NCBI GenBank assembly: GCA_019116705.1
Contig: DXBF01000055.1
Coordinates: 1-38,138 of the forward strand
DNA from: Candidatus Gemmiger avistercoris
GTDB taxonomy: Bacteria > Bacillota > Clostridia > Oscillospirales > Ruminococcaceae
Direction of reading: 5' to 3'
Length of the DNA: 38,138 nt
The notes below the pieces were generated by a model. The model was not told the origin of the DNA and did no database searches. It worked only from the letters and a program-made list of their open reading frames with translations. Positions within the stretch are counted from its first letter, which is position 1. Each line of letters opens with the position of its first letter. Shown in pieces: positions 5,722 to 23,710 of the stretch. Position numbers and translations under genes: made by a program.

Positions 5722-5753
5722 ACGGATATTTTTATAAAAATATAGTGCTTTTT

Positions 5754-5782: not shown

Positions 5783-5807
5783 TCAAGGGGGAAACAGTGC
5801 CTTTCGC

Positions 5808-6854: not shown

Positions 6855-6864
6855 TGTTTTTACT

Positions 6865-7677: not shown

Positions 7678-7813
7678 GGATTTTCCCTCATCATACAGTG
7701 TTGTTTTAACTTACTTAGATCGTTTTCTACCACACTATTTATATCTACTCCGAATTATTTTATAATATTATAAATCGTATATATCATGTATATAATAGTA
7801 GTGTATACATATA

Positions 7814-8459: not shown

Positions 8460-8536
8460 TGGTGCGCCGGAAGAGACTCGAACTCCCGACCTTCTGATTC
8501 GTAGTCAGACACTCTATCCAGCTGAGCTACCGGCGC
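8460..8536 (-). tRNA. tRNA-Arg(ACG)
   Basis: A full cloverleaf reads on the minus strand. The acceptor stem is GCGCCGG (8536-8530) with CCGGCGC (8470-8464), discriminator A, and CCA encoded at 8462-8460. The D arm is AGCTCAGCTGGATAGAGT and the T arm GGGAGTTCGAGTCTC. The anticodon loop CTACGAA within the TGA/TCA stem reads ACG, for arginine CGU and, after A34 deamination to inosine, CGC and CGA. It has its own promoter and terminator and stands alone. Confidence 0.95.
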
Positions 8537-9959: not shown

Positions 9960-10205
9960 TTATGCCGTCCGCTCCGCGCTGTCGGGGATGCCGTCGCCGT
10001 CCGCGTCGGGCAGCTCCGGCAGGCCGGCCACACTCGTCAGCAGGCTGAGCACGCCCGCCAGTACCGAGGCGCTGGCCACCAGCCGCCAGTCCACCTGGCC
10101 CAGCGCCGCCGCCGTGCCGATGGTGGCCACCGCGGTCTGCGCCACCGTCTTGATTGCGCGGACGCCTGCGGCGTGCAGCCACATACAGATTTTCTTCTTG
10201 TCCAT
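9960..10205 (-). CDS. r1t-type phage holin with acidic C-terminal tail
   Basis: An 81-residue protein with two hydrophobic stretches (about 10-35 and 40-62). The sequence WLHAAGVRAIKTVAQTAVAT followed by GQVDWRLVASASVLAGVLSL is typical of the r1t-like holin family, which forms membrane holes to release endolysin. An unusual tail, DADGDGIPDSAERTA, matches the calcium-binding loop seen in type-3 thrombospondin repeats and dockerin-like motifs. AAGGGGGAAAA favours ATG 10205 over an in-frame ATG at 10223. It is the last gene of the particle cassette, placed with the endolysin as in phage lysis modules. Confidence 0.85.
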   Translation of the reverse strand: MDKKKICMWLHAAGVRAIKTVAQTAVATIGTAAALGQVDWRLVASASVLAGVLSLLTSVAGLPELPDADGDGIPDSAERTA

Positions 10206-10219
10206 GGTTTTCCCCCTTT

Positions 10220-10498
10220 TCATTCCGTGCGCTGCCGTTCCAGCAGCGTGATGCGCTTTTCATGGTCCTCCAGCCGCTCGTCCTGCCCGTCGCTGTGGGC
10301 CCAGATGCGCCGGTGGCTCTCGGCGGCGTGGGCGCGCTGGTCCCGCGTCTCCCGCTCCACCTCGTCCAGCCGGTGCTCGATGGCCTGCAGCAGCGTGGTC
10401 AGCCGGGTGATGCTGCCGTTCAGCTTGAGCACCGGCCCGCCCACGGCGGCCGCCAGCCCTGCCAGGGTGACCAGCACCCCCACCACGTCCCATTCCAT
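10220..10498 (-). CDS. XhlA-like membrane/coiled-coil lysis accessory protein
   Basis: A 92-residue protein with an N-terminal membrane helix (VVGVLVTLAGLAAAVGGPVL) followed by a heptad-rich coiled coil (LTTLLQAIEHRLDEVERE to RITLLERQR). This is the layout of phage XhlA/hemolysin-type accessory proteins encoded next to holins; here the helix is N-terminal. ATG 10504 overlaps the endolysin stop, but GGGGTG sits six bases before ATG 10498, which is therefore preferred. It probably assists membrane lesion formation. Function by position and shape only. Confidence 0.65.
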   Translation of the reverse strand: MEWDVVGVLVTLAGLAAAVGGPVLKLNGSITRLTTLLQAIEHRLDEVERETRDQRAHAAESHRRIWAHSDGQDERLEDHEKRITLLERQRTE

Positions 10499-10503
10499 GG
10501 ACA

Positions 10504-11289
10504 TCACCCCACAAACCGGCTGTGATACAGCTTGCGCTTGTCCCAGCCCTCTTTTTCTGCCAGCTGCACGACCCGCATGGCGTCGCCGTTGCTCACGGTC
10601 ATAGCCGCCGCAAAATGGGCGGCGTCCACCTGCAGCATGCTGTAGCGATCCGCCCCAAGCCGCAGCGATCCCGCCAGGGCCGCCACCCTGGCCGCCTCGC
10701 CCGCGCTCAAAGGCCCCACGGTCACCAGCTGGATACTGCGCAACTCAGATACGGAACCGGGCTGTTCCTCCTCCGCGCTGCCGTAGGTGCCCGCCGCGTT
10801 GGGCACGCCCGCATAGGCCGTGGGATCCAGCCCCGTGCCGGTGGCCGTGGCGCGCGCTTCCAGGTGGCAGTGCTTATAGGGCGGGTCGTTGAGCGCCGCG
10901 TTGCCCGAATTGCCCATGATCGCCAGCGCGTCGCCGCTCTGCACGCGCTGGCCCGCCTGCACCAGCAGGCGCTCGCAGTGGCAGAAGTACAAAAAGTTCA
11001 CCGCGTCCGGCGTCTGGGCGGCGTCCAGCTGCACGCAGACGTACCAGCCCCACTCCCAGGTGGGGTCGCCGGTGCTCCTGTCCACTTTCCGCGCCCGGGT
11101 CACGGTGCCCCGGATGGCCTTTTGCGCGCCGTCTGCGGCGGTGTAGTACGGCATGCAGATGGTGGGATCGTCCAGCCCCACCAGGTCGATGCCGCCGTGC
11201 CAGGTCTTGCCGCCGCCGCGCGTCCAGCCATAGCGCCCGTAGGCGTAGGGGATCTGCACGCGGCCCTTGAAGATCCCTGTCCGGGTCAT
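10504..11289 (-). CDS. M23-family metallopeptidase endolysin
   Basis: A 261-residue protein. The N-terminal zinc peptidase domain carries WHGGIDLVG (ligands H31 and D35) and KHCHLEA (H140 catalytic, H142 ligand), the hallmark pair of lysostaphin/LasA-like M23 enzymes that cleave peptidoglycan cross-bridges. IMGNSGNAALNDPP between them is also typical. The remaining 90 residues form a separate domain of no recognised family, perhaps for wall binding. AGGAGGGAG precedes ATG 11289; longer in-frame starts overlap the upstream small gene. No signal peptide is seen, so export would depend on the adjacent holin. Confidence 0.88.
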   Translation of the reverse strand: MTRTGIFKGRVQIPYAYGRYGWTRGGGKTWHGGIDLVGLDDPTICMPYYTAADGAQKAIRGTVTRARKVDRSTGDPTWEWGWYVCVQLDAAQTPDAVNFLYFCHCERLLVQAGQRVQSGDALAIMGNSGNAALNDPPYKHCHLEARATATGTGLDPTAYAGVPNAAGTYGSAEEEQPGSVSELRSIQLVTVGPLSAGEAARVAALAGSLRLGADRYSMLQVDAAHFAAAMTVSNGDAMRVVQLAEKEGWDKRKLYHSRFVG

Positions 11290-11311
11290 GTTGCTCCCTC
11301 CTGTTCCGCGC

Positions 11312-11506
11312 TCATGCGTCATGGGCGGCGCCCTCCTGCGCGGCAGACGGTTCCTCCGCCGGGGCCTTCGCCGCGTCCATTGCCAGCCGGACCCGCAGCA
11401 GCAGGTTCTCCAGCGCCATGGCCTTGACGGCCAGCGGCAGGGCGGCTGCGTTGACGTCCTGCAGCAGCTGCTCCTGCAGCGCCGCCACTTTTTCGTTATC
11501 ATTCAT
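11312..11506 (-). CDS. Small phage protein, unknown
   Basis: A 64-residue protein (MNDNEKVAALQEQLLQDVNA at the start) predicted to be mostly helical, with a central VKAMALENLLLRVRLAMDAA helix and an Ala/Glu-rich tail. GGGGGGAAC precedes its ATG. It lies between the tail-tip gene and the endolysin, where siphophages often carry short helical proteins of unknown role. No family is recognised. Its last bases approach the endolysin ribosome site, suggesting coupled translation. Confidence 0.65.
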   Translation of the reverse strand: MNDNEKVAALQEQLLQDVNAAALPLAVKAMALENLLLRVRLAMDAAKAPAEEPSAAQEGAAHDA

Positions 11507-11522
11507 GGATGTTCCCCCCTGT

Positions 11523-13643
11523 TCAAAATCGTTTGACGCCGTTGACCCAGACCTCGGCGTCACCATTGCCGTTGATGTAGACCTGGAACTTGGCTTCCTG
11601 TTTGGCGTTGTAGATAGCGAATTCGCCCCCGGCATAGCCGGAAAAAGCTGTCAGATTCCAAACCTGGCCGCCGGTGGCCCCCGGCCCCAGCAGGTACAGG
11701 TTGCCGATGGCTGCGTTGTTGCCGGAGGACGCCAGGGTGGCGGCCTCTCTCCAGGTGTTATCGTTGATTTTCCGCCACACGCGAATCAGCCCGTCCTGCA
11801 CATCCACACGGGAAGTCCCATCGGACGTGTGGAAAGTGCCGGTGATGGTCACACTTCCGTCCGATGTCAGTTTGAAGTTTTCGCTGTCCACCACCAGCGT
11901 GTTGGCGGCAAAGGTGATGGTGCCGCTGTTGATGGTAACGCTGTGGTCGCTCTGCGCGAACGCGTCCCGTGCACCGTCGATTTGCACCACATTCGGGGCC
12001 GTTCCAATAACGATTCCATCCCTTGTCAGCGAAATGCTGCTCCCGGCTTCTGTGCGTATCGTTGCCTTGACGTTCCGCACAGAGAACGCCCCGTGACCGC
12101 CGCTGTAAATAATTGCCTGGAATTGCAACTTGTTTATGTCATCTTCTTCCAATGCAATCTTATAAGTGGCAGGAATCCAATCTGTAGGTGCTACATCGTC
12201 CCCTGAAGTGAGGTACAGGGCGTAGCTTCCGCCGTCACTCTTATTTGCGTAATCGTACCAGACAATCACACCGCACGTACTTCCCCCGACCGTAGATTCG
12301 ACTTTGTACTCGAAGGTGTAGGTAACTTCTTTTGCTCGAATCCGGGAAAGGTTCTTTTCCGGGATGAAGATCGACCCGTACTCATTATTTGAGGATGCCG
12401 TTATGGTCAGCATATCCCCGGCGACCACTGTGTTCACGGAAAAATCCGTCCACGCGGCCCCATCCGAAACATCCATGTCCGCTCCTGCTGACACTTCCAG
12501 ATCGATGCTGTCCACCGTCTGCTGAAGCTGCGAATAATTTCCATCCAGCTGGGACGCCCTGATGTTCAGCCCGTCCACATCGGCCTGGATCTCCAGCATT
12601 TTGCCCTGGAGGTTCTGCCATCTCCGGGTATTGACCGCCGAGGCGCCGTCCCGCCGTGCGTGGCCGGTGCTCTCCAGCGTGACTTTCTGGCCGGAGATGG
12701 TCCGCCGCATGATATATGCCTGCATCCGGCGGCCGTAGGCGTCCTCCACCGTGACGATCTCGCCCGGCGCGGGGGAATCGGCATCCAGCGGGACGCTCAC
12801 CGTCAGGGGCGTATACCGGATGTCTTTCATGATCTCATAAATGGCCTGCGCCACCGGGCGCAGCGCGTCGGCGGTCTGGGACGTCAGCAGCAGGTTGCCT
12901 TCCAGCACCAGCGCGTTGGCGGCGGTCTCGTCGGGCGGGTAGAGCACGCCGACGTCCTCCGCGCTCTGGCGGATCTGTACTTTGTCGATGGGCGCGGTCT
13001 GGTAGTCCTCATAGGTCAGGCCGTCCGCAAAGTACCCTGCGGGCCCGATGCCGGTCCCCGCAGGGGCGTACCACGCGAATTCCAGCTGCCCCGCGGGGGT
13101 CATGCGCGCAAAGCGGCACATGGCCTGCGCAGCCCACTGGACGATCTGCCGCCCGGTCATGCCGTCCGCGTAAAACGGCAGGACGCTGTACGACGTATTG
13201 GCCTGTGCTTCCAGGTTCCCCGGCAGCAGTTCCACGCCGCATTGCGCGCAGACCGCTTCCACCAGCGCCCCCAGGGGCATCGGGAAGCTGCCCTGCTGGT
13301 CCCGCAGCCAGGGCGAAAGGTCTTTGTCCAGCAGCGTCATGCGGTCGTAGGCCGTCACCCGGATGACGTTGGCGCTCTTTTTCTGCGGTTTTTCGGCCAG
13401 GAACACGCCCACCGGCGTCTGCGCGCCGCTCTCCGCGTCGACGCGCGCCAGCGTGAACTCCGCCCCCTGTGTGATGCTCCGGCTGTTTTCCGGCGCCCAC
13501 AGTTCGATCTCTGCGCAGGCCGCGCAGGCAGCGCCGGGGCAGAGGTCGGTCTGGTCGTTGACCTGCCCGGTGAGTTGTACGCTGCGGATGGCGCCGCTGT
13601 CCAGCGTGGCGCCGTCCGGCAGCGTGATCTTGTGCAGGAACAT
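11523..13643 (-). CDS. Tail-tip protein with C-terminal receptor-binding region
   Basis: A 706-residue protein following the distal-tail gene. Residues 1-340 look like a siphophage tail hub/tail-associated protein (AYDRMTLLDKDLSPWLRDQQ; a P-G-E-I-V-T-V-EDAYGRR segment near 300). Residues 345-385 form a short helical connector (LDGNYSQLQQTVDSIDLEV). Residues 390-545 form a beta-rich module resembling a jelly-roll carbohydrate-binding domain, in DNA that is less GC-rich than its flanks. The end (about 545-706) is a repeat-poor beta structure like fibre tips. It probably sets the binding specificity of the particle. Hub function is inferred from order and weak similarity. Confidence 0.75.
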   Translation of the reverse strand: MFLHKITLPDGATLDSGAIRSVQLTGQVNDQTDLCPGAACAACAEIELWAPENSRSITQGAEFTLARVDAESGAQTPVGVFLAEKPQKKSANVIRVTAYDRMTLLDKDLSPWLRDQQGSFPMPLGALVEAVCAQCGVELLPGNLEAQANTSYSVLPFYADGMTGRQIVQWAAQAMCRFARMTPAGQLEFAWYAPAGTGIGPAGYFADGLTYEDYQTAPIDKVQIRQSAEDVGVLYPPDETAANALVLEGNLLLTSQTADALRPVAQAIYEIMKDIRYTPLTVSVPLDADSPAPGEIVTVEDAYGRRMQAYIMRRTISGQKVTLESTGHARRDGASAVNTRRWQNLQGKMLEIQADVDGLNIRASQLDGNYSQLQQTVDSIDLEVSAGADMDVSDGAAWTDFSVNTVVAGDMLTITASSNNEYGSIFIPEKNLSRIRAKEVTYTFEYKVESTVGGSTCGVIVWYDYANKSDGGSYALYLTSGDDVAPTDWIPATYKIALEEDDINKLQFQAIIYSGGHGAFSVRNVKATIRTEAGSSISLTRDGIVIGTAPNVVQIDGARDAFAQSDHSVTINSGTITFAANTLVVDSENFKLTSDGSVTITGTFHTSDGTSRVDVQDGLIRVWRKINDNTWREAATLASSGNNAAIGNLYLLGPGATGGQVWNLTAFSGYAGGEFAIYNAKQEAKFQVYINGNGDAEVWVNGVKRF

Positions 13644-13655
13644 CGGTCCACCCCC

Positions 13656-14033
13656 TTAACACTGAATGATGTTGAATTTGTAGTTGCGCCACTCGCCGGT
13701 GACCTTGCTCTTCCAGGCGGCGCTGCACTGGGAGCGGTAGGCGGTGCAGGTCTCGGCGGCGCCGCTGTCCCCGAATTTCGGGTGCGTGAAGGTGAACTCC
13801 GCCTTGCCTGCAAACAGGCTTTCCATATAAGCCAGTTCCGCGTCGGTCAGGTGGGCGTACTCGAACCCCCAGGTGCCCACGCCCTGGCGCACCATGACGC
13901 GGTGCATCACGCCGTCCTCGGTGCGGCCCGAATCGCTGGCGTCCAGGTCGGAAAAGGAGAAGCCCGCCCCGGCGTCCGGGGCCAGCATGGGCTGGCCGTC
14001 GATCTGGTAGCAGTCGGTTTTTGCTCTTGCCAT
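13656..14033 (-). CDS. Phage tail protein (distal-tail position)
   Basis: A 125-residue protein starting MARAKTDCYQIDGQPMLAPD, with a WGFEYAHLTDAELAYMESLF segment and an FTFTHPKFGDSG turn. Small phage tail proteins of this layout, including DUF6711-type ones, lie between tape measure and tail hub in Clostridial siphophages; the exact family is a guess. ATG 14033 lies two bases from the stop of the tape measure gene with GGAGGG inside that gene, so translation is coupled. It probably joins the tail tube to the hub. Confidence 0.65.
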   Translation of the reverse strand: MARAKTDCYQIDGQPMLAPDAGAGFSFSDLDASDSGRTEDGVMHRVMVRQGVGTWGFEYAHLTDAELAYMESLFAGKAEFTFTHPKFGDSGAAETCTAYRSQCSAAWKSKVTGEWRNYKFNIIQC

Positions 14034-14034
14034 T

Positions 14035-15753
14035 TCAAGCCCTCCCCGTGATGATCGCCTGCCGGTTGGTGTAGCGGGCCGCCGCCTGGCCGATCACGTC
14101 GTCCCCGATGTGGATGCCGTACACGGCCTCCAGGATCTGCCGCAGCACGGCCACGACCTGTTCCAGCGCGGCCAGGTTGCCGTCCTGGTAGTCCTGCATG
14201 ACGGCGGCCACCGCCTGCTGGATGGTAGCCAGCGGCGCTTCCACGTTGGTGCCGTGGCTCTGGTCGCCCAGCACGGCCAAAAATTCCCGGTTGGGCGGGA
14301 TGACCGCGCCACGGGCCAGCGCCGGGATGGGCGCCGCCTGCGCATAGGCCAGCGCCGGGGCGGCGCTGCGGCCCGCCAGCCACTGCCCTGCCGAGGCGAT
14401 GGCCCCCGATGCCGCCTGCCCGACGCCCGACAGCCCCGACAGGATGCCGTTGATGAGCGACCCGACGGCCCCGGCCAGGTTTTGCACGACGCCCAGGATG
14501 CCGTGGACGGCGTTTTCCACCGTGGCGGTGATGGTCTGCCACACGGCGCGCACGGTCCCGGCGATGGCGTTCCAGGCGGCGGTCCAGTCCTGCTGCAATA
14601 CGCCGGTGACAAAGTCCGCCAGGCCGCGCAGCACCGCCAGCACGGCGGCGACGGCACCGCCGGCGATGCCTGCCGCCGTGGTCACCGCCCCGCTCACGGC
14701 CAGGAACACCTGGCTGAACACCGGGCCGAAGGTAGCCGCCAGCCAGGAGGCCAGCGGCGCCAGGGCGTTGTTCCACAGCGCCAGCACCAGGTTCGCCACA
14801 GCGCCCAGGGCCAGCGTCAGCTGCTGCCACAAAGGTTCCAGGCAGCCGGACCACAGCGCCCCCAGTTGGGCGATAAGCCCCGCCAGCACCGGCTGCACGG
14901 TCCCGTTCCACAGCGCGGTGAGCAGGGCGGTCAGGTTCTGGAAGGCCAGCGCCACGCCGTCCAGCAGGGGCTGGCCGTAGGCGCCCCAGGCGCTTTGGAT
15001 GCCCGCCATCAGCCCCTGCCAGACCGTGAGCAGCAGCGCCAGCGCGGGCTGCACCACGGTGGTCACGGCGCTGTCCACCAGCCCGCAGAGCCACTGGAAG
15101 GTATTGCCCAGCACGGCCAGCGCCGTCTGCACCGCGCCGCCCACGATGGGTGCGAACGCCTGGGACAAGCTGTTGACCACACCCGGCAGGAACACCGTCG
15201 CCAGGTATTGGGCCAGCGGGGCCAGCGTGCCCTGCCACAAGGCCAGCGCCGCCGTGCGCAGCGGTTCCCATACGGCGGCGGCCGCCGCCCGCATCTGCGC
15301 CCAGGCTGCCTGCCAGGCGGCGATGGCCGGGGCGTAGTACCGCTGCAGGTAGGCCCAGAACTGCGCCCACAGCCCGCGCAGCGCGTCCAGCGCCTGCCGC
15401 CACAGGCTGACCCGCGCTTCGGCGTCCTGCGCCGCGCCCTTTTTGCCGCCGCTGCCTTTGCCGCTGCCTTTGCCGCCGCCTTTGCTGCCGCCTTTGCTGC
15501 CGCCGCCGGTTTTGGCGGTTTCGGGCGCGGCCAGGCGCTGGATCTCGTCAAATTTTGCCAGGCTGCGGGCTGCCCTGGCGCCCTGGGCGGCGGCGGAGCG
15601 CAGGCTTTTGCGCAGGTCGTCCAGCACCTTGCGGGCCTGGGCCCCTGCGTCGCCCAGGTCCTGCAGCGCGGCGGCCATGGCCTGCAGCGAGCGTTCCATG
15701 CTGCCGTCAGCCCTCAGCCCGCCGCCCGTTTCCAGCACGATCTCCTGTGCCAT
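14035..15753 (-). CDS. Tape measure protein (short)
   Basis: A 572-residue Ala/Leu/Trp-rich protein. The N terminus is a helical domain (MERSLQAMAAALQDLGDAGA), then comes a low-complexity Gly/Ser/Lys linker at about residues 84-107, then long hydrophobic helices with recurring W residues at intervals (LWAQFWAYLQRYYAPA, TVWQGLMAGIQSAWG). It closes with an amphipathic tail. Position between tail chaperones and distal tail supports tape measure function, in which length sets tail length. 572 residues would predict a short tail by family rule. GGAGGAGT precedes ATG 15753; the gene starts 46 bases inside the preceding gene. Confidence 0.88.
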   Translation of the reverse strand: MAQEIVLETGGGLRADGSMERSLQAMAAALQDLGDAGAQARKVLDDLRKSLRSAAAQGARAARSLAKFDEIQRLAAPETAKTGGGSKGGSKGGGKGSGKGSGGKKGAAQDAEARVSLWRQALDALRGLWAQFWAYLQRYYAPAIAAWQAAWAQMRAAAAAVWEPLRTAALALWQGTLAPLAQYLATVFLPGVVNSLSQAFAPIVGGAVQTALAVLGNTFQWLCGLVDSAVTTVVQPALALLLTVWQGLMAGIQSAWGAYGQPLLDGVALAFQNLTALLTALWNGTVQPVLAGLIAQLGALWSGCLEPLWQQLTLALGAVANLVLALWNNALAPLASWLAATFGPVFSQVFLAVSGAVTTAAGIAGGAVAAVLAVLRGLADFVTGVLQQDWTAAWNAIAGTVRAVWQTITATVENAVHGILGVVQNLAGAVGSLINGILSGLSGVGQAASGAIASAGQWLAGRSAAPALAYAQAAPIPALARGAVIPPNREFLAVLGDQSHGTNVEAPLATIQQAVAAVMQDYQDGNLAALEQVVAVLRQILEAVYGIHIGDDVIGQAAARYTNRQAIITGRA

Positions 15754-16372
15754 AAGCACTCCTCCTTTCTCCCGATCCTATCACAGCCGCCTCTCCCGGG
15801 CGGCGCGCGTCCAGCAGGGCCAGAAGCCGCTGCTTCTCCTCGTCGCCGCCGGCGTCCGGGCGCAGGTCCACGGCGGCCCGGTGGCTGCGGTAAAATTCCA
15901 GTTCCCAGGGTTCCAGTTTTTTGCCGCGGCGCAGCTTGTCCCGGATGCCCACCACCGTGGCGAAGGCCCCCTCGCCGATGGCGTCGAACCAGCCCAGGAA
16001 GCTCCACCAGTGCAGGTAGGGCAGCGCCCGCACATCCTGTCCGGCGGCCCGGCTCACCCCCGCGGCGATCAGCGGCGCGTCCTGCTGCCAGTCCATCAGC
16101 CGGGGGCCGGGGCTGCCGGACCCCGGGCGGCCCGCCGCCAGGAACTCCGCCAGGAAGCGCGTGGCTTCCGGCCAGTCCTGCCGGGGCATGGCGGCAAAAT
16201 CCGGGTAAAACAGCCGCATGGCCACATACCACCGTTCGCCCCGGTCCAGTTCCGGCGCGGCGCCGCCGTCCAGCCAGCGCAGCACTTCCAGGATGTCCCG
16301 GTAATCGGTGCGGATCTCGTACACCCGGTCCTCGATCTCCGCCCGGGTGGGCAGGCCCCAGGCCCCGGTCAT
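15707..16372 (-). CDS. Gp15-family phage tail chaperone partner
   Basis: A 221-residue protein matching the bacteriophage Gp15 family (PF06854): IRTDYRDILEVLRWLDG near the start, MDWQQDAPLIAAGVSRAAGQ, then ALPYLHWWSFLGWFDAIGEG, the most conserved stretch, and KKLEPWELEFYRSHR. Gp15 follows the tail assembly chaperone in many siphophages and is thought to act with it in tape-measure assembly. Its ATG overlaps the chaperone stop by four bases. The C-terminal 15 residues overlap the tape measure gene in another frame. Confidence 0.85.
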   Translation of the reverse strand: MTGAWGLPTRAEIEDRVYEIRTDYRDILEVLRWLDGGAAPELDRGERWYVAMRLFYPDFAAMPRQDWPEATRFLAEFLAAGRPGSGSPGPRLMDWQQDAPLIAAGVSRAAGQDVRALPYLHWWSFLGWFDAIGEGAFATVVGIRDKLRRGKKLEPWELEFYRSHRAAVDLRPDAGGDEEKQRLLALLDARRPGEAAVIGSGERRSAYGTGDRAGNGRRAEG

Positions 16373-16821
16373 TCGGCGCCCCGGGCGGCCCGGGCCGCCG
16401 CGGCCTCCGCCTCGGCGGCTTCGGCGCGGGCTTCCAGGTGGCGCTGCGCCCCCTGCTGCAGAATGGGCGCCAGCGCTTCCAGCAGGTTCTGCACCACCCG
16501 TTTGCCGTTGGCCGCCACCCCGGCCAGGTTCACGCCGCCCAGCGCCGCGTCAAAGTCGTTTTCCGGCCCGAACACACCGCCCAGCAGGGCCTTGATGCGC
16601 CCGTCGTAGTCGGCCAGCAGGGCCAGCCCGGCCTCGGCCCCTTCGGGGCCGTCGGGCAGTTTGGCGGCGCGGCGGTCCAGTTCTTTGTCCAGGGCTTCCA
16701 GTTCGCGGCCCGCGTCAAAAAAGCGGTGGTAGAGGTTGGGGTCCGCGGGGTTGAAACGCAGCACGCCCCGCCCGTTGACGCAGAATTCCTCCACGCCGGT
16801 GTCAATGTTCAGTTGCCGCAC
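16369..16821 (-). CDS. Tail assembly chaperone-like protein
   Basis: A 150-residue protein starting at GTG 16821 behind GGAGGCAGAA; it begins VRQLNIDTGVEEFCVNGRGV and has the helical middle FFDAGRELEALDKELDRRAA. Phage tail assembly chaperones occupy exactly this place, after the tail tube and before Gp15 and the tape measure. It ends in an Ala/Glu-rich helix. An in-frame region further upstream overlaps the tail tube gene and lacks a ribosome site. I found no obvious slippery site for the frameshift many phages use here; Gp15 is a separate coupled gene. Confidence 0.72.
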   Translation of the reverse strand: MRQLNIDTGVEEFCVNGRGVLRFNPADPNLYHRFFDAGRELEALDKELDRRAAKLPDGPEGAEAGLALLADYDGRIKALLGGVFGPENDFDAALGGVNLAGVAANGKRVVQNLLEALAPILQQGAQRHLEARAEAAEAEAAAARAARGAE

Positions 16822-16844
16822 AGTTCTGCCTCCTTTCCCGCCGG

Positions 16845-17321
16845 TCAGGACGCCGGGGTGAAGGTGCAGGTATCCGGCGCGAAGGTGCCTTTGGTCTTGA
16901 CGCCGGTGTAGTGCACGTTGAAGGGGATCTGGTAGCCGGTGGTGTCGCCGCCGTAGCTGACGATCTCCACGTAGCATTCCTCCCTGACGGCGGGGTAAGC
17001 GCCCTCGTTCTCATCCCAGAGCTTGACCTCCACGATGTCGGTCTTGAGTTCGTCCAGCACCAGGTCGCCGTCCAGGATAGCCTGCAGCTTTTCAAACAGC
17101 GGGTCGCCCTCCTCGGCGTAGAAGGGGGCCACCTCGCCCTGTTTTTCGTAGCTGTCGATGACCACCGAGGTCTGGCCCAGGATGTTGGTCTTTTTCTCCA
17201 CATTGGCGTTGAGCTCGGGGGCGTATTCCTCCAGGTCGCGGCCCAGGCGGACGTAGGCCGCCTCCTCCGCGGCAAAACCCGCGTTGAGGTAGTGGGCCAT
17301 ATATTTGCGTTGGATCTTCAT
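16845..17321 (-). CDS. Major tail (tube) protein
   Basis: A 158-residue protein, MKIQRKYMAHYLNAGF at the start, that keeps the features of siphophage tail tube proteins of Gram-positive phages: TSVVIDSYEKQGEVAPFYAEEGDPLF, then a WDENEGAYPAVREECYVEI strand pair and a final IPFNVHYTGVKTKGTF. It would polymerise into the tail tube around the tape measure. AAGGAGGAAAA precedes ATG 17321; longer frames upstream overlap the tail-completion gene. It appears full length. Confidence 0.85.
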   Translation of the reverse strand: MKIQRKYMAHYLNAGFAAEEAAYVRLGRDLEEYAPELNANVEKKTNILGQTSVVIDSYEKQGEVAPFYAEEGDPLFEKLQAILDGDLVLDELKTDIVEVKLWDENEGAYPAVREECYVEIVSYGGDTTGYQIPFNVHYTGVKTKGTFAPDTCTFTPAS

Positions 17322-17419
17322 GCAGTTTTTCCTCCTTTTTATAAGGCAGGGGCCTGCGCCCCCGCCGCGGACTGTCGAAAAAGGTTCAAAAATCGTTGCC
17401 GGCGGCGGACATGCGCCCG

Positions 17420-17866
17420 TCAGGGCTGCGGCGTCCATTCGTATTCGGCCCGCAGCGTCAGGCTGTAACGGGCGGTGCCGCCCGTGTCGGCGCGTTCCAG
17501 CCGCCCGTCTTCGGCCCGCAGGCTTTCGCTCTGCGGCAGGCCGGTGCCGAAAACCGGGGCGCGGCAGGCGGCGCTCTCGGCGGCCACCCACGCCTGCAGG
17601 GCCAGCAGCCGTCCGGCGTTGCGGGCCGCCTGTACGCCGTCGCCGGGCGGCAGCGGCAGGCAGAGCCGCAGCAGGAACTCGGCGCGGCAGCGCAGCGTCA
17701 CGCCGCCCGCCACATCCTCCCGCCGCTGCAGCACCCGCACGCCCCGGGGCCACAGGCCGCCGGTGTCCGGCGCAGGGCCGGCGTCCTCGGCCCGCAGGGC
17801 CACGCCCGCCAGCGCGGGCGCGCCGGAAAGAAATGCCAGCAGTTCTGCCAGCGCGTTTTCGTTCAT
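17420..17866 (-). CDS. Tail terminator/completion-like phage protein
   Basis: A 148-residue protein, MNENALAELLAFLSGAPALA at the start, with a central beta region (RREDVAGGVTLRCRAEFLLR LCL as two adjoining strands), and a C-terminal YSLTLRAEYEW strand. It sits between the head-closure and tail tube genes, the usual place of a minor tail-completion or terminator protein. Ala/Arg-rich composition reflects high GC. GGGAAGGGAGGG precedes its ATG. The assignment rests mainly on gene order. Confidence 0.65.
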   Translation of the reverse strand: MNENALAELLAFLSGAPALAGVALRAEDAGPAPDTGGLWPRGVRVLQRREDVAGGVTLRCRAEFLLRLCLPLPPGDGVQAARNAGRLLALQAWVAAESAACRAPVFGTGLPQSESLRAEDGRLERADTGGTARYSLTLRAEYEWTPQP

Positions 17867-17897
17867 GGGGTCCCTCCCTTCCCGTCCCAGGCCGCGT

Positions 17898-18305
17898 TCA
17901 ATTCGTCAGGCTGTGCGCCCCGGTGCCGCTGCCGGTCCACCAGGCGCCCGCCTCCACATGGTGCAGCACGCCGCCGCGTTCCATGGGCAGCACATACTGC
18001 ACCACCGCCACCCGCGGGTCGGCCCCCGGCACAAAGGCGGGCCAGCCGTCCCAGTCCAGTTCCGGCCCTTCCCCGGGGTACAGGCGGTCGCCGGGCTCCA
18101 GCGTGTAGCCGCTCCCGTAGCGGGCGGACGTTTCCGGCACCACCAGCAGCAGGACGGCCCCCTCGGCGGTGCCGTCGGCCGCGGGGGTGCGGCGGCGGCC
18201 GTGCTGCCAGTACACCCCGTGCAGCACGGTGCGCTTAACCCGCCGGGCCGCGCCGTCGCCGTGGTACAGCGTCACCGTTTGGCAAAACAGGCGGCTCTTA
18301 CGCAT
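17898..18305 (-). CDS. Head-closure-like phage protein
   Basis: A 135-residue, beta-rich protein beginning MRKSRLFCQTVTLYHGDG, with VLHGVYWQHGRRRTPAADG, then VPETSARYGSGYTLEPGDRL and a final VVQYVLPMERGGVLHHVEAG. This pattern is common in Clostridial phage minor structural proteins placed after the first connector, probably a stopper or head-closure protein. Its ATG overlaps the stop of the connector gene by eight bases (ATGCGTAA). No family name can be given with confidence. Confidence 0.65.
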   Translation of the reverse strand: MRKSRLFCQTVTLYHGDGAARRVKRTVLHGVYWQHGRRRTPAADGTAEGAVLLLVVPETSARYGSGYTLEPGDRLYPGEGPELDWDGWPAFVPGADPRVAVVQYVLPMERGGVLHHVEAGAWWTGSGTGAHSLTN

Positions 18306-18669
18306 GGGGCAGCCACCGCCCGATCTGCAGGTAATACCCGGCTTCGTGCCGGTAATGGGCGGCCCGCAGCGCCAGGGTGGTGGCGCACAGTTCCGGCGGG
18401 GCGGCGTAACTTTCGCTGACGCTGCCCACCGTCACGCCGGTCAGGCCCCGGACCTCGTCCTCCTGGGCGAACTCATAGACCGCGTCGGCCACGGCGCAGG
18501 CCGCCATGTCCCAGGCGGTCTGCTCCTCCAGCCCCGGGCGCGGCGCCACCGCATACACCGCGCGCATGCGGTCCAGTTCGGCCCCGGCGCGGCGGATCAT
18601 CCGGGCAAAGTCCGCCTCGGGGATGTCTTCCCCCAGGTAGACCTCCCGGTAAAAGGTGTAATCGGGCAT
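18298..18669 (-). CDS. Head-tail connector (gp6-like adaptor)
   Basis: A 123-residue helical protein starting MPDYTFYREVYLGEDIPEAD, with two long helices (ADFARMIRRAGAELDRMRA and WDMAACAVADAVYEFAQE) and the EVRGLTGVTVGSVSESY turn that typifies phage gp6/gp15-like head-tail adaptors. It would bind the portal ring. It follows the capsid gene by 12 bases, with GTAAGGAGGG before the ATG. Family assignment is good by shape and place. Confidence 0.8.
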   Translation of the reverse strand: MPDYTFYREVYLGEDIPEADFARMIRRAGAELDRMRAVYAVAPRPGLEEQTAWDMAACAVADAVYEFAQEDEVRGLTGVTVGSVSESYAAPPELCATTLALRAAHYRHEAGYYLQIGRWLPHA

Positions 18670-18681
18670 GGGCGGCCCTCC

Positions 18682-19539
18682 TTACTTTTCCTTGAACTTG
18701 GCCAGCACCACCTTGGCTTCGTTGGAGAGCACCGCCACATAGAACTCGTCGGCGGTGATCTCGGTGGTGCGGGTCTTGGGCTTGCGCTCGGTCTCGATGT
18801 TCACATCGCGCTTGCGGTAGATGGTCAGGGCCGGGATCTCGTCGTCCACCTCGGGGTCGGCTTCCAGCTTGACGATGGGGCAGGTGTAGACGCCGGTCGC
18901 CAGCGGCACCTTCTTGCTGGGCACCAGGCGGCAGCCCGCGATCATGCCGATCTCGCCGGTCAGGCTGACGCCGGGGGTGTATTTGTCGGCGCTGAGGAAG
19001 TCGGGATCCTTGCGCAGCTGGGTGACCTGCTTGGGGTGGACGAACATCACCTTGTCGGAGCAGCCCATCTCCTCTTCAAACAGGTCCACGGCGTCCACGA
19101 TGGCGTCGTAGTTGATGGTGGCGGCGGAGCCGTCGTAGGTCAGGGTAGCGGTCTGCAGGGCGTCCATGCAGTCGCTGTCGATCTTGGCGGCGATGGCCAG
19201 GGCCAGCTGGGTGTTGGCCTCGCCCACGGGGTTGCCGTAGCCCGAGAGCACGGCTTCGTCGGTGAGGCCGATGCCCTTCATGGCCTTCTTGATGGTGGCC
19301 TTGCGGGTGGAGGTGGTCATCTTTTCGATGGCGACCTCGCCGCCTTCGGCCACGTCGGCGGCGTCGCCGATGTAGGTGTAGGCGGGCACGGTGATGGTAT
19401 CGCCGGGCACGCCCACGAGGGTATCGTCGATCTTGGCGAAGGGCGCGACGCGCAGCTTTTTGGGGATGCGGGCCGATACCATATCGCCCATGACTTCGGG
19501 ATCGATCAAATCGGAAAGTTTGGTGATGATGTCTGCCAT
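18682..19539 (-). CDS. Major capsid protein, N4-gp56-like (HK97 fold)
   Basis: A 285-residue protein. The start MADIITKLSDLIDPEVMGDM and the sequence VPGDTITVPAYTYIGDAADV, GLTDEAVLSGYGNPVGEANT, MFVHPKQVTQLRKDPDF and the C-terminal EFYVAVLSNEAKVVLAKF match the N4-gp56 family major capsid proteins common in Clostridial prophages. It should assemble the icosahedral shell. No head protease is encoded nearby and there is no long delta domain, so maturation may be protease-free. AAAGGAG precedes ATG 19539; upstream in-frame sequence overlaps a GC palindrome and is not coding. Confidence 0.93.
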   Translation of the reverse strand: MADIITKLSDLIDPEVMGDMVSARIPKKLRVAPFAKIDDTLVGVPGDTITVPAYTYIGDAADVAEGGEVAIEKMTTSTRKATIKKAMKGIGLTDEAVLSGYGNPVGEANTQLALAIAAKIDSDCMDALQTATLTYDGSAATINYDAIVDAVDLFEEEMGCSDKVMFVHPKQVTQLRKDPDFLSADKYTPGVSLTGEIGMIAGCRLVPSKKVPLATGVYTCPIVKLEADPEVDDEIPALTIYRKRDVNIETERKPKTRTTEITADEFYVAVLSNEAKVVLAKFKEK

Positions 19540-19640
19540 AGCGGCTCCTTTCTGTTGTGTGTTGTGTTTGTGTTGGAGGGCGGGGGTCCTGCGATCTGCC
19601 GGAAAGGGAAAAACAAAATGCCGTTTGTGTCCGTTTGCAG

Positions 19641-19659
19641 GGCGGGGTCGTACCCCGCC
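19641..19659. repeat. Type A GC palindrome inside the phage operon
   Basis: GGCGGGGT and ACCCCGCC with a three-base centre, flanked on the left by GTCCGTTTGCAG, the same flank as the copy at 33032. It lies in the 176-base gap between the small portal-linked gene and the capsid gene, so a stem can form in the mRNA there. Confidence 0.8.
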
Positions 19660-19715
19660 GCGGGACATCACGGAAGATGCAGCGCGTCCGGGCAGCAGGC
19701 CGCCCCGCCGGCGGT

Positions 19716-19889
19716 TCACCGCCCCCGCAGCGCCGCATACCCCGCGGGGTCCTCCCGCTTCAGGGCCAGGCGCTCGCGGTACCCCATGCGGTCAAAGGCC
19801 GCGCGGTCGGGGGTCACCGGCACGCTGCCGGTGCCCGCCGCGTAGGGCGCGGGGCGCTGTTCCGGCGCTTCGCGGATCGGTTCACTCAT
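19716..19889 (-). CDS. Small protein between portal and capsid
   Basis: A 57-residue protein starting MSEPIREAPEQRPAPYAAG and ending in a basic helix (GYRERLALKREDPAGYAALR). A perfect AGGAGGTGA ribosome site lies inside the portal gene and its ATG overlaps the portal stop. Scaffolding proteins usually occupy this position but are longer; the C-terminal helix could play the capsid-binding part of a minimal scaffold. No family is recognised and no other scaffold is present. Confidence 0.65.
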   Translation of the reverse strand: MSEPIREAPEQRPAPYAAGTGSVPVTPDRAAFDRMGYRERLALKREDPAGYAALRGR

Positions 19890-21216
19890 GGCGTTCACCT
19901 CCTTCCGGCATGAACTGGCGGCGGATGCGCCGCAGATCGGCCTCGCTGCCGTGGGGCAGCCCGAAATACCAGGCCAGCGCCAGCTCGGGGCGCAGCAGCC
20001 CGTCGGCCACCATGGCCCGCTGCTCCGCCCAGACCCGGGCGCGGTCATAGAGCACGCCGTCGCCCCAGTCGATGCTCAGCGCCGCCGTCGCCGCCTGCCC
20101 GCCGTCCAGCCCGTACAGGCTGCCCAGCGTGCGGCACAGGTCCAGCGCTTCCCGGGCGGCAGCCTCCCACATGGCCTGCAGGTCGCGGATGGTCAGGTCG
20201 TAGTCCACCGCCGTGGCGTTGACCTCGGTGGCGGTGCGGGGCTCGGCTTCGGCCTCGGTCTCGCTCAGGATGCCCCGGCGCAGGCCCAGCAGGCTTTCGC
20301 ACCCCCGCAGCAGGTCCTGCTTGCGGGCCAGGTAGCTCTGCTCCCGCAGCGCGGGGCTGTAGACCGTGACCCCCACGTTGGCGGGGTCGTCGGGCAGGCC
20401 CACGAACAGGTCGTCCCGCAGGGCGCGGCGGCCCTGGGCGTCGGGGCGCAGCAGGTCCTCCGACGCGAACACCCGGGACGCGCCGTTGGCGAACTCGGTG
20501 TTCAGCTGTTCCTCGCAGCGGGCCAGGGCGTGCAGCAGCCCCGCCGCCGGGGCGTAGATGCTGACCGCGTCGGCGCTGCCGTCCACGCAGTTGGCGCCGG
20601 GGGCGCGCAGCACCGCCAGCCCCACCCCCGGCACGCCGGGCAGGAAAAGCTGGGGCACCAGGCCGGCGCAGGCTTCCAGGGTTGAAAGCGGCACGCACCG
20701 CCCCAGCGCCTGGCCGTTGAGTTCAAACAGCCGCGTCTCGATGGTCAGCCCTTCCGCCCCGGCGGTGCGGCGTTCCAGCAGGGCGTAGCGCACGCCGCCC
20801 CGGCTGTGCTGTTCCATGGTGCCCACGGCCAGCAGCCGCCCGTGGGCGTCCCGGGCCAGCGGCACGTAGCAGTCCCGCCGGATGGGCACAAAATCCAGCG
20901 CGCCCTCCGCCGGCACCGGCTTGAGCAGGCACTCCCCGCCGATGAGGGCGTACTGCACGGCGGTGCGGCCCGCGGCGTCCAGCGCCGCCAGGCTGCGGCG
21001 CAGCCAGTCCCCGGCGTCCGCGTCCAGCCGTGCCTCGTACTCGGCAAAGACCGTGCGGCACAGCTTGGCCACGATCAGCGCGGCCAGCCGCGGGGCGGGG
21101 TCCTCGCCGGGGCGGGGCGCGCCGTAGTACAGGTCCAGCCATTCCCGCAGGGCCGCGCGCATCCGCGGCGTGGTCACGTCGCTTTTGCCGAAGGCTTGTT
21201 CCAGATAACTTTGCAA
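19882..21216 (-). CDS. Phage portal protein
   Basis: A 444-residue protein with portal features: an N-terminal WLDLYYGAPRPGEDPAPRLA region, AALIVAKLCRTVFAEYEARL, a wing with YALIGGECLLKPVPAEG, and a long C-terminal helix region (YDLTIRDLQAMWEAAAREAL). It resembles SPP1 gp6-type and Clostridial prophage portals and would form the dodecameric ring through which DNA passes. It starts at TTG 21216 behind AGGAGGAACG. Unusually, no terminase precedes it: the next gene upstream is the sigma-like activator, and a terminator lies between them. Confidence 0.88.
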   Translation of the reverse strand: MQSYLEQAFGKSDVTTPRMRAALREWLDLYYGAPRPGEDPAPRLAALIVAKLCRTVFAEYEARLDADAGDWLRRSLAALDAAGRTAVQYALIGGECLLKPVPAEGALDFVPIRRDCYVPLARDAHGRLLAVGTMEQHSRGGVRYALLERRTAGAEGLTIETRLFELNGQALGRCVPLSTLEACAGLVPQLFLPGVPGVGLAVLRAPGANCVDGSADAVSIYAPAAGLLHALARCEEQLNTEFANGASRVFASEDLLRPDAQGRRALRDDLFVGLPDDPANVGVTVYSPALREQSYLARKQDLLRGCESLLGLRRGILSETEAEAEPRTATEVNATAVDYDLTIRDLQAMWEAAAREALDLCRTLGSLYGLDGGQAATAALSIDWGDGVLYDRARVWAEQRAMVADGLLRPELALAWYFGLPHGSEADLRRIRRQFMPEGGERHE

Positions 21217-21327
21217 ACGTTCCTCCTTTCCGCGCGGGACGGGCCCGCGCTGTTGCCGCGGCGTTTCCCCGGGGCCGCGCCCCCGTTCCCGTATGCCGCC
21301 GCCCTCCTTTCCCGGGAAAATAAAAAA

Positions 21328-21355
21328 CCCGCGAAAGGTCTTGCCCTCTCACGAG
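21328..21355 (-). terminator. Terminator between activator and portal operon
   Basis: On the minus strand arms 21355-21345 and 21338-21328 pair over 11 bases including G-U pairs, around a six-base loop, followed by TTTTTTATTTT. It would end transcription from the activator gene and from the promoter at 21369-21397 before the portal gene is reached. Confidence 0.85.
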
Positions 21356-21368
21356 TTTCAACGGTACC

Positions 21369-21397
21369 ATATTACTACTTTAAGTTGTTAAAAACAA
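21369..21397 (-). promoter_or_regulatory. Promoter aimed into the terminator before the portal gene
   Basis: TTGTTT (21397-21392) and TAATAT (21374-21369) on the minus strand are 17 bases apart. The predicted start near 21362 is about seven bases before the terminator stem, so without read-through it would give only a tiny leader RNA. The -35 overlaps an AACAA/TTGTT dyad. Confidence 0.5.
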
Positions 21398-21425
21398 TGA
21401 ATTTGCGGGAAAACTTTTCTCCCCG

Positions 21426-21857
21426 TCAGGAAGCGTTTTGCTCCGGGCGGCCCAGCGGCAGGGCCAGCACCCCGGCGCGGTGGATCTGGTAGACCCGGCG
21501 CAGCACCACGCCCATGGCGTCGGCGATGTCGGCGTAGCTCTCGCCCAGAATATAGCGGCGGCGCAGCACCTCCTGCACGGCGGGGTCGGCCACGGCGGCC
21601 ACCACGCGCATCACCTCGGCGCGGCGCACCAGGCAATCCCCCACCTGTTCTTCGAGTTTTTTCTGCGTTTCTTCGATTTTTTCTACCGCTTTGGGCAGGC
21701 GGTCGGGGTCCTGCCCGGCCCCCGGCATGCCGCCCAGGCAGGCCGTCACACGCTGGGCGGCGCTGCGCAGGGTCTCCATTTCGCCTTCCAGCAGGCGTTC
21801 CCGGTTCACGGCCGCGCGGTACTGGCGCAGCCACTCGATCTTTTCCTGATAGGTCAT
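21426..21857 (-). CDS. Sigma-70 region 4-like phage activator (DUF1492/ArpU-like)
   Basis: A 143-residue protein. Residues 1-90 are helical with a coiled-coil-like stretch (DRLPKAVEKIEETQKKLEEQ); residues 100-140 (VQEVLRRRYILGESYADIAD, then AMGVVLRRVYQIHRAG) form a sigma-70 region 4-like helix-turn-helix. Such DUF1492/ArpU-like proteins sit at the end of early regions in Firmicute phages and switch on late structural operons. CAAGGAGGAACG precedes ATG 21857. It is the first phage-type gene here, directly before the attenuator-like site and portal operon, so it is the likely trigger of particle genes. Confidence 0.8.
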   Translation of the reverse strand: MTYQEKIEWLRQYRAAVNRERLLEGEMETLRSAAQRVTACLGGMPGAGQDPDRLPKAVEKIEETQKKLEEQVGDCLVRRAEVMRVVAAVADPAVQEVLRRRYILGESYADIADAMGVVLRRVYQIHRAGVLALPLGRPEQNAS

Positions 21858-21922: not shown

Positions 21923-21951
21923 CTTAGTATAACAACCATTAGTTGTCAATA
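21923..21951 (-). promoter_or_regulatory. Promoter of the phage activator with overlapping dyad
   Basis: The minus strand has TTGACA followed, 17 bases on, by TAAGAT. Immediately after the -35 lies an ACAAC/GTTGT dyad with a five-base centre, well placed for a repressor. The exact edges are approximate by one or two bases. Similar GTTGT half-sites occur at the second promoter near 21385-21397. Confidence 0.5.
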
Positions 21952-22086: not shown

Positions 22087-23649
22087 TCAGCACAGCGGCG
22101 CCAGCAGGCGCAGGGCCGCGCTGACCATCGTGCCCACAAAGCCGGTGCGGCAGTCCTCCAGCGTGAGGGCGCGGCTCCGGGCTTCGATGTCCGCCAGATC
22201 GGCGCGGACATCCTGCAGCACCCTGCCGCCGTAGAGCAGCGCGCCGCACTCAAAGTGCAGGTAGAGGCTGCGGTAGTCGAGGTTGACGGTGCCCACGACG
22301 GCCACCTTGCCGTCGATCAGCCAGGTCTTGGCGTGCAGGAACCCCGGGGTGAAGCTGTAGATCCTGACCCCCGCGCGCAGCAGGTGGGGGAAGTAGCTGC
22401 GCGTCAGCAGGAAGATGGTGGGCTTGTCCGGGATGCCGGGGGTGTAGATGCGCACATCCACCCCGCGCTTGGCGGCCAGCCGCAGGGCCGTGAGCAGGTC
22501 GTTGTCCAGGATCAGGTAGGGCGTGCAGATGAACAGTTCTTTCTGCGCCTGGCCGATCAGGTCCAGGTAGGCGTTCTTGGCCACGCTCTCCCGGTCCACG
22601 GGGCTGTCCGCGAAAGGCTGCACCAGGCAGTCGGTGGGGCGGGGCGGCACGTCGGGCAGCATGGCGGGCAGGTCCAGTTCCTCTTTGGGGTAGTGGGCCC
22701 GCCAGAAGGTCAGGAAGATGTTGGCCAGGCTGCGGGCCGCCGGGCCTTCCAGGCGCACGCCGCTGTCCTTCCAGTAGCCGAAGCGCACCAGCTTGTTGAT
22801 GTACTCGTCCGCCAGGTTGACGCCGCCGGTAAAGGCCACCGCGCCGTCCACCACCATGATCTTGCGGTGGTCGCGGTTGTTCATGACCAGGTTCAGCAGC
22901 GGCACAAAGCGGTTGAAGGAGAATGCCTTGATCCCCTCGGCCCGCAGGGTCTCGTCGTAGTTGTGGGGCAGCAGGCTCAGGCAGCCCGCGTCGTCGTAGA
23001 TCACCCGCACGTCCACGCCCTCGCGGGCCTTGCGGCGCAGGATCTCATGGATGCGGCCCCACATCTCCCCCATGCCGATGATGAAACTCTCCACATAGAT
23101 GCTGCGGCGGGCGCTTTCCAGCGCTTCCAGCATATCGGGGAACATGGCCTCGCCGCTGGGGTAGTAGCGCACCGCCGTGCCCCCGTACACCGGCGCGGGG
23201 CCGAAGTCCCGCACATAGCGGGCGGTTTCCCCGGCGCGGGGGTCCCTGCGTTCCAGTTCGGCCTGGGCGGCGGGGTCCGCGGTGCGCAGGGGGGCCAGCT
23301 GGGCCTCGGCCCGTTCCAGGCAGCGGCGCAGATGCAGCGCGGGGCGCTTGTCGCCCCACAAAAGATAGAGCAGCCCGCCCTGCACCGGCATGACCATGAA
23401 CAGGATCATCCAACTCAACTTGAACTCCGGCACGGTGGAATCCTGCCGGATCAGCGCCAGACACATGATGCAGCTCAAGGCCAGCCCCACGCCGTTGATC
23501 CAGTCGGCGTAATCGCTCAGACGGTAGAACAGCAGGAACAGCCAGACGATCTGCAGGAGCAGCAGCAGCCCGGTGACCACCAGACGGCTGAACACCAGCG
23601 AGAGGGCCTTGCGCAGAATATGGCGCCATGTCATTTTGGGTTTGTGCAT
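22087..23649 (-). CDS. cls: Cardiolipin synthase (phospholipase D family)
   Basis: A 520-residue membrane enzyme that joins two phosphatidylglycerol molecules into cardiolipin. Three hydrophobic helices occupy about residues 20-100, with VMPVQGGLLYLLWGDKR typical of bacterial Cls. Two HKD active-site motifs follow: NRDHRKIMVVDGAVAFTGG near residue 260 and FLHAKTWLIDGKVAVVGT near residue 437. GAGGTG precedes ATG 23649; an in-frame start at 23670 would include the upstream terminator's T-run. Family length is normal. It may also act on related lipids. Confidence 0.93.
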   Translation of the reverse strand: MHKPKMTWRHILRKALSLVFSRLVVTGLLLLLQIVWLFLLFYRLSDYADWINGVGLALSCIMCLALIRQDSTVPEFKLSWMILFMVMPVQGGLLYLLWGDKRPALHLRRCLERAEAQLAPLRTADPAAQAELERRDPRAGETARYVRDFGPAPVYGGTAVRYYPSGEAMFPDMLEALESARRSIYVESFIIGMGEMWGRIHEILRRKAREGVDVRVIYDDAGCLSLLPHNYDETLRAEGIKAFSFNRFVPLLNLVMNNRDHRKIMVVDGAVAFTGGVNLADEYINKLVRFGYWKDSGVRLEGPAARSLANIFLTFWRAHYPKEELDLPAMLPDVPPRPTDCLVQPFADSPVDRESVAKNAYLDLIGQAQKELFICTPYLILDNDLLTALRLAAKRGVDVRIYTPGIPDKPTIFLLTRSYFPHLLRAGVRIYSFTPGFLHAKTWLIDGKVAVVGTVNLDYRSLYLHFECGALLYGGRVLQDVRADLADIEARSRALTLEDCRTGFVGTMVSAALRLLAPLC

Positions 23650-23668
23650 ATACACCTCATTCCCGGTC

Positions 23669-23710
23669 AAAAAAAGGAACGCACCCCGTCCGCCTGCGCG
23701 GCCGGGGTGC
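23669..23710 (-). terminator. Terminator of the 51-residue gene
   Basis: On the minus strand GCACCCCG (23710-23703) pairs with CGGGGTGC (23688-23681) around a GC-rich loop that can itself pair, followed by GTTCCTTTTTTT. It lies between the small gene and cls, so cls needs read-through or its own promoter. Confidence 0.75.

Follow-up and report, generated by a model that had tools for sequence, protein, structure and literature searches.

The DNA analysed here, referred to as the window, is the whole of contig C23 (DXBF01000055.1; 38,138 nucleotides) of Candidatus Gemmiger avistercoris, whose assembly (GCA_019116705.1) comprises 1.95 Mb in 69 contigs and is 83% complete. It contains a phage-type cassette for head, tail and lysis, which runs on the minus strand from 21857 to 9960 with an activator gene first and a holin gene last, and which is discussed below as one locus of a gene transfer agent (GTA)-like element of the genus Gemmiger. 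The features are as follows; "by position" marks names based on gene order.

22087..23670, minus strand: flanking host gene, PLD/cardiolipin-synthase-like (Pfam PLDc)
21426..21857, minus strand: activator, 143 residues, coiled coil plus sigma-region-4-like helix-turn-helix (HTH); phrog_36 (E 4e-14), sigma-70 region-4-like
19882..21216, minus strand: portal, 444 residues; phrog_533 (E 1.4e-52), TIGR01542 below cut-off
19716..19889, minus strand: mini-scaffold, 57 residues, C-terminal part of a PF06810-type scaffold, by alignment with a prophage scaffold
18682..19539, minus strand: major capsid protein of N4-gp56/TP901-1 type, 285 residues; phrog_544 (E 3.5e-82), TIGR04387 (E 7e-59)
18298..18669, minus strand: head-tail adaptor (connector 1); phrog_541
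17898..18305, minus strand: connector 2 (by position); phrog_3366, an unnamed family (E 3e-4)
17420..17866, minus strand: connector 3 or tail completion protein (by position); conserved in relatives
16845..17321, minus strand: tail tube (by position); phrog_3099, a conserved unnamed family (E 1.6e-46)
16369..16821, minus strand: tail chaperone (by position); phrog_11299, an unnamed family
15707..16372, minus strand: Gp15 tail chaperone; PF06854
14035..15753, minus strand: tape measure, 572 residues; phrog_1535 (E 8e-41)
13656..14033, minus strand: distal-tail-like protein (dit, by position); phrog_1194, an unnamed family
11523..13643, minus strand: tail tip, 706 residues; phrog_6616 tail protein
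11312..11506, minus strand: small protein, 64 residues, no family; homologue in some relatives
10504..11289, minus strand: M23 endolysin; PF01551
10220..10498, minus strand: coiled-coil protein; phrog_1009, an unnamed family
9960..10205, minus strand: holin of r1t type; PF16945 (E 7e-13)

The first-pass annotation of this DNA had described all cassette genes as open, and the gene calls agree for every named gene, with the main assignments backed by family searches of the cassette proteins. In these searches connector 3 and two small genes had no family match, and the Pfam and NCBIfam matches of the activator stayed below the curated cut-offs. Its further statement that terminase, integration and replication genes are absent also holds, as no terminase, a feature expected at a prophage locus, was seen in the window and the cassette proteins gave no match to an integrase or replication family. 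The flanks are host-like, as it had supposed, with the gene that we take to be PLD/cardiolipin-synthase-like on one side and an HTH gene, a TraX-like gene and tRNA-Arg on the other. On the latter side, an HTH_3 protein with a hydrophobic N-terminus (9446-9838) and a TraX-like membrane protein (8610-9449) come directly after the cassette.

The search of related genomes for the same locus, which had been proposed as a check, used a capsid profile and detected the capsid in 25 of the 35 Gemmiger genomes, and in 16 of the 19 with a completeness of 90% or more and a contamination of 5% or less. In an even draw across the family, a single-protein search found it in 12 of 197 genomes, the window genome included. 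The relatives include Gemmiger formicilis ATCC 27749 (L086; genome G202), MCC627 (L072), An723 (L075), An812 (L082) and DFI.6.10 (L089). The portal adjoins the capsid in 24 of the 25 carriers, the exception being G227, and the PLD-like gene lies less than 2 kb from the activator in 20; in the other five (G218, G199, G221, G213, G212) it was not seen within the available stretch. The cassette is thus an inherited locus of the genus, kept by most sampled Gemmiger species.

The carriers differ in the position of the terminase. The large subunit (TerL) lies within the cluster, after the activator, in 15 carriers, preceding the portal in 14 and the capsid in G227, while in nine (the window, G197, G199, G204, G216, G218, G219, G220 and G228) the portal comes immediately after the activator and there is no terminase in the cluster; G212, with too short a contig, was left unclassified. 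The first-pass annotation had listed a GTA-like particle with a terminase encoded elsewhere among its options. This is borne out in eight of the nine terminase-less genomes, where a pair of a short small subunit (mini-TerS) and TerL lies at another locus behind the promoter motif described below; in the window genome TerL was not found. The relocated TerL is 84-86% identical to that of ATCC 27749. In the complete genomes G228 and G220 it lies 664 kb and 236 kb from the capsid, respectively, and in the other six genomes on a different contig; G198 (82% complete) has a relocated TerL and no capsid match. The downstream neighbours of the pair are common to the eight genomes and the upstream neighbours are of two kinds; judging from their first residues, the neighbours presumably include sugar transport, glycoside hydrolase, BlaR-like and arsenic genes. 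Neither portal nor capsid was matched within 10 to 20 kb around the relocated TerL, and apart from a weak lysin match (27%) in L260, no other cassette gene was matched there. TerL matches PF04466 and PF17288 as well as the solved structures 2wbn (terminase large subunit, E 6e-28) and 4idh (Gene 2 protein, E 4e-10), and the cores of what we take to be its ATPase and nuclease motifs are invariant across 24 element TerLs.

In the structural tree, the terminase-less genomes form a clade with an ultrafast bootstrap support (UFBoot) of 98 (eight of nine members; G216 was dropped as too partial), and in the TerL tree, which does not include the window, one with a support of 77. This clade is sister to the G. 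formicilis group with a support of 94 and 100, respectively. Distances are congruent among the structural genes, TerL and the host gene (r 0.89, 0.92 and 0.94; 22, 19 and 19 genomes), and none of 2000 permutations reached as high a value for any of the three. The simplest history suggested by these trees would be that the terminase moved out of the cluster once. In G221 (L080 3460-8403), TerL and portal are separated by about 5 kb of other sequence, in which a homologue of the coiled-coil gene is found. G197, G228, G221 and G203 also contain separate prophage-like loci, which have a TerL and a portal of their own (L263, L264, L265 and L266).

Two proteins of the element are shortened in comparison with homologous prophages. 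The gene between portal and capsid corresponds to the C-terminal 40-45 residues of a scaffold protein and is 56% identical over 41 residues to the scaffold of a prophage in G020, a genome of another genus of the same family. In 22 of 23 loci measured, a start with a ribosome site gives a mini-scaffold of 52-67 residues; G228 has no such start, yet the space after its portal is equally small. The scaffolds of two homologous prophages have 198 and 235 residues. In-cluster mini-TerS has 61-88 residues from starts with a ribosome site in 11 of 15 cases, and in the other four, which have no ribosome-like site, the longest open frame is 70-71, compared with 161-209 residues for the TerS of three prophages. 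The mini-TerS of L254 aligns only with positions 96-130 of the 141 of PF03592, below the cut-off (E 6e-4), while prophage TerS covers positions 3-138. Judged by these alignments, the TerS of the element is without the DNA-binding part. In PMC11841831, known GTAs are described as having a TerS without detectable DNA-binding domain, a feature that the mini-TerS shares. The tape measure has 568-575 residues in eight terminase-less genomes as opposed to 617-870 in five prophages.

Three putative control sites precede the portal gene, one of them upstream of the activator:

21932..21949, minus strand: activator promoter, TTGACAAC-N5-GTTGT, with the -35 hexamer overlapping an SOS-type box (genome searches)
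21369..21401, minus strand: late-promoter motif TTCATTGTTTTTAACAACTTAAAGTAGTAATAT, also before the relocated terminase operon of relatives
21324..21359, minus strand: leader hairpin followed by a T tract, terminator-like (hairpin search)

The late motif connects the two loci, since one and the same motif stands upstream of the window portal and of the relocated mini-terS of the relatives. A search of eight whole genomes that allowed up to three mismatches found it 14 times, with no matches for the controls: two per genome, before portal and before terS, in all six terminase-less relatives searched, one in ATCC 27749 (before terS) and one in the window genome. In G197 and G199, of which stretches were scanned, it is present at both loci. 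Of 22 leaders, 18 have a stable hairpin with a T tract immediately downstream of the late promoter, compared with 13 of 1100 random windows and none of 440 shuffles. The structure model of the activator (pLDDT 86.5) consists of long helices and an HTH-like end, and the matches listed among solved structures concern only the N-terminal coiled-coil part and the like. The hairpin and the sigma-like HTH together make the activator a possible antiterminator.

In each of six genomes searched, the activator promoter, TTGACAAC-N5-GTTGT, is matched perfectly at a single place; a further 14 matches have one mismatch. Its core, ACAAC-N5-GTTGT, occurs at four places in the window genome, namely before the activator, a gyrase-B-like gene, uvrB and a repressor with HTH_3 and S24 domains, recA not being among them. 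In G220 there are six places (activator, gyrase-B-like gene, uvrB, repressor, recA and one other), and in G228 eight, with the same five kinds as in G220, two boxes in tandem and one near the repressor; of uvrB in G228, only the gene start was read. The box thus precedes repressor, uvrB and gyrase-B-like gene in all three genomes and recA in two, and Pfam confirmed one example of each downstream gene. As a control, the reversed pattern was found at 0, 2 and 5 places in the window genome, G220 and G228, respectively. From the genes that it precedes, we infer that ACAAC-N5-GTTGT is the SOS box of the genus. The HTH_3 and S24 repressor (L344, L346, L355), which carries the box in its own promoter and is without the PF01726 domain, is the probable LexA of the genus. 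In all three genomes its promoter also holds, by eye, ACAAC-N5-GTAGT, the variant found in the late promoter. The two tandem boxes of G228 (L345/L348; G228:C1:458077-458156) lie before a protein of 340 residues.

The first-pass annotation had argued for selection rather than decay and suggested computing dN/dS per gene. This was done for 15 element genes, the lysis genes being left out, and the median is below 1 for every gene compared. In the terminase-less clade the median pairwise values are 0.10 for the relocated TerL, 0.13 for the capsid, 0.17 for the tube, 0.23 for the portal, 0.24 for gp15 and mini-TerS, 0.25 for connector 1, 0.28 for the activator, 0.29 for connector 2, 0.30 for dit, 0.33 for the chaperone, 0.34 for connector 3 and 0.37 for the mini-scaffold, with 0.20 for the host flank gene. 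In the larger terminase-in-cluster group, capsid and TerL have values of 0.27 and 0.19. No internal stops were found in the aligned part of the 15 genes in 24 genomes except at the extreme ends, where the alignment overruns the gene (gp15 in six taxa, act in one, dit in one). These results support purifying selection on the cassette and not decay.

Taken together, the best explanation, to which we assign a probability of roughly 0.75, is a domesticated, damage-responsive and vertically inherited GTA-like element of Gemmiger that derives from a TP901-1-like siphophage and has its structural and lysis locus in the cassette. As far as its genes allow a prediction, the element probably makes particles loaded with fragments of its host's DNA. 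Among six features in the GTA definition of PMC9662315, three are found in the element. Its structural proteins are derived from caudoviricetes, as seen from sequence similarity; it is endogenized, with a second locus in eight of the nine terminase-less genomes and none seen in the window genome; and it is inherited vertically and co-diversifies with its host (r 0.89-0.94), measured with a single host marker that is itself a neighbour of the element. The other three features of the definition are a gene cluster that exceeds the capacity of the head, largely random packaging of host DNA and its delivery to other cells. No integrase was seen when the cassette was scanned and the clusters of G228 and G220 were read; att sites were not searched for.

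We propose the following course of events. The LexA-like repressor, with its HTH and S24 peptidase parts, would keep the activator promoter off through the ACAAC-N5-GTTGT box until DNA damage lifts its hold. The sigma-region-4-like activator would then switch on two unlinked late operons, possibly by antitermination, both of which have the common promoter with the variant box and, in most leaders examined, the terminator-like hairpin. The first operon would be the head-tail-lysis cassette and the second, at a separate place of the chromosome in the clade, mini-TerS and TerL. Capsids would assemble on the mini-scaffold, TerL together with a TerS without DNA-binding part would fill the heads with host DNA, without sequence preference and until full, tails would join, and endolysin and holin would lyse the cell. 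In this scheme we infer the binding of the repressor, the action of the activator, the randomness of packaging, the delivery of DNA and the presence of a terminase locus in the window genome. A more specific version sees a new Gemmiger GTA family under direct SOS control, with scaffold and TerS cut to C-terminal remnants giving small heads and unspecific packing, a motor that moved once and kept its promoter, a GafZ-like antiterminator, and particles that are the source of 8.4-8.9 kb DNA found in faecal particles; we consider the chances of this whole set to be evenly balanced.

Several observations weigh against the proposed element. The capsid is missing from 10 of the 35 genus genomes, and nine of these ten keep the PLD-like host gene without the element; in these nine no cassette gene was matched in the 3 to 15 kb on the element side, and weak HTH or TraX matches alone occur in three. 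Of 14 terminase-in-cluster genomes scanned (G217 was left out), 10 do not have the late motif, so the control scheme is not genus-wide. The activators of these ten genomes are more distant from that of the window, and in L081, L082, L101 and L215 a different motif, TTACAGAA...GTAAC, was found by eye before terS and after the activator promoter, which suggests that in this group the control sites changed along with the activator. In the host-gene tree, built without G218 and G199, the terminase-less genomes do not form a single group. Fast evolution is seen for tail tip and tape measure in the terminase-less clade (median dN/dS 0.63 and 0.49), and the larger group with terminase in the cluster has higher values (0.81 for dit, 0.70 for the tape measure and 0.64 for connector 3). 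Some clusters appear broken: G205 has its capsid split between two reading frames (L099 10001-10797; residues 1-92 and 116-283), G227 is without portal and mini-scaffold, in whose place about 0.4 kb with short repeats lies between TerL and capsid (L087 9623-10001), and G207 has no match from chaperone to tail tip. These defects may be assembly faults, divergence or losses. TerL was found neither by a PF03354 family search nor by a protein search with G. formicilis TerL in the window's own genome, and a homologue (C41:46917-47711; 70% amino acid identity) of the gene upstream of the relocated TerL in four relatives is present there with no TerL after it. Finally, these genes have not been linked to any particle, packaged DNA or transfer.

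Among the alternatives, a PBSX-like killer would be the same host-controlled particle, packing host DNA and killing related cells without delivering it. The gene content is compatible with this, the rapid evolution of the tail tip fits it, and the same option is left open for the Faecalibacterium element in PMC12946183. Nothing in the sequence speaks decisively against it; we nevertheless regard it as unlikely. That the terminase was lost in the window's species, leaving empty heads or tails only or an element starting to decay there, would account for the failure to find TerL and for the lone homologue of its upstream neighbour. However, the genome is incomplete, and its matches to the relocated TerL and downstream stretch (a query from base 205 of 11 kb) are all shorter than 160 bases, which fits a missing stretch of an incomplete assembly; the portal is intact and all eight other terminase-less genomes have TerL, so that we hold such a loss to be improbable. 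An ordinary prophage remnant, or the freshly deleted prophage that the first-pass annotation had considered, finds some support in the existence of homologous prophages with full TerS, TerL and scaffold (G020; IMG/VR contigs) and in the defects of G205 and G227. The fresh deletion fails, because the terminase-less state is common to a clade whose members G218 and G228 differ from the window by a dS of about 0.3-0.85 per gene, and the common locus, the purifying selection, the single relocation in the clade, the absence of internal stops from the aligned parts and the lack of a visible integrase make a remnant of any kind very improbable. A satellite relying on the terminase of a helper phage, for which the prophage-like loci L263-L266 might serve (TerL 59-73% identical to the element TerL), can practically be dismissed in view of the element's own mini-TerS/TerL behind the same promoter, its vertical inheritance and, again, the absence of a visible integrase.

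Apart from the GTA-like element, positions 1-7700 of the window have a GC content of 0.44-0.64 per kb as opposed to 0.58-0.75 in the cassette, contain glycan genes (WbqC, PIG-L, a glycosyltransferase, a sugar transferase and DUF6077) and adjoin tRNA-Arg (8460-8536). This part may be a surface-polysaccharide island.

Packaged fragments of 8.4-8.9 kb were reported in 2026 for Faecalibacterium and Gemmiger in human faecal particles (PMC12946183). For Gemmiger this report of GTA-like packaging in the human gut came without an encoding locus, and the element described here, including that of G. formicilis ATCC 27749 (L086), can now be named as a candidate source. The cluster measures about 13.4 kb in G228, compared with the 8.4-8.9 kb packaged in particles that have not been tied to it. 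The element is also an example, within one genus, of a GTA-like system turning multi-locus, in which the promoter shows how unlinked parts may stay coordinated, and the suggested damage signal would turn on DNA exchange. A search for terminase only beside the capsid would misname such elements.

Of the known systems, the lactococcal phages TP901-1 and P335 resemble the element in their capsids, which are 42-43% identical to that of the window. The clostridial prophage of G020 has the same module order and differs in its full TerS and scaffold, as opposed to the mini-TerS and mini-scaffold of the element, in which no integrase was seen. FpGTA of Faecalibacterium is described in PMC12946183 as most likely podovirus-like and as consisting of two unlinked operons in several strains. 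It shares with the Gemmiger element the Ruminococcaceae host, the two unlinked operons, a TerS without obvious DNA-binding domain and the lysis genes. However, FpGTA splits head and terminase from tail and lysis, whereas here the terminase is split from head, tail and lysis, and homologues of the FpGTA operons are reported absent from Gemmiger and Subdoligranulum; the two are set apart here by published description and not by sequence. In its regulation the element resembles, by description, CcGTA of Caulobacter, where GafZ binds between -35 and -10 and acts as an antiterminator (PMC11150451): both have a regulator with a sigma-factor-like HTH, a palindrome between -35 and -10 and a terminator to pass. 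In Caulobacter the terminator lies after the first gene, and in the Gemmiger element antitermination is a proposal. BhGTA (VSH-1) of Brachyspira is a GTA with a non-contractile tail whose only identifiable TerL, as in the terminase-less relatives, lies outside the structural cluster (PMC9662315). It belongs to another phylum, and in Gemmiger there are relatives that keep the terminase in the cluster, so that the move can be placed on the tree.

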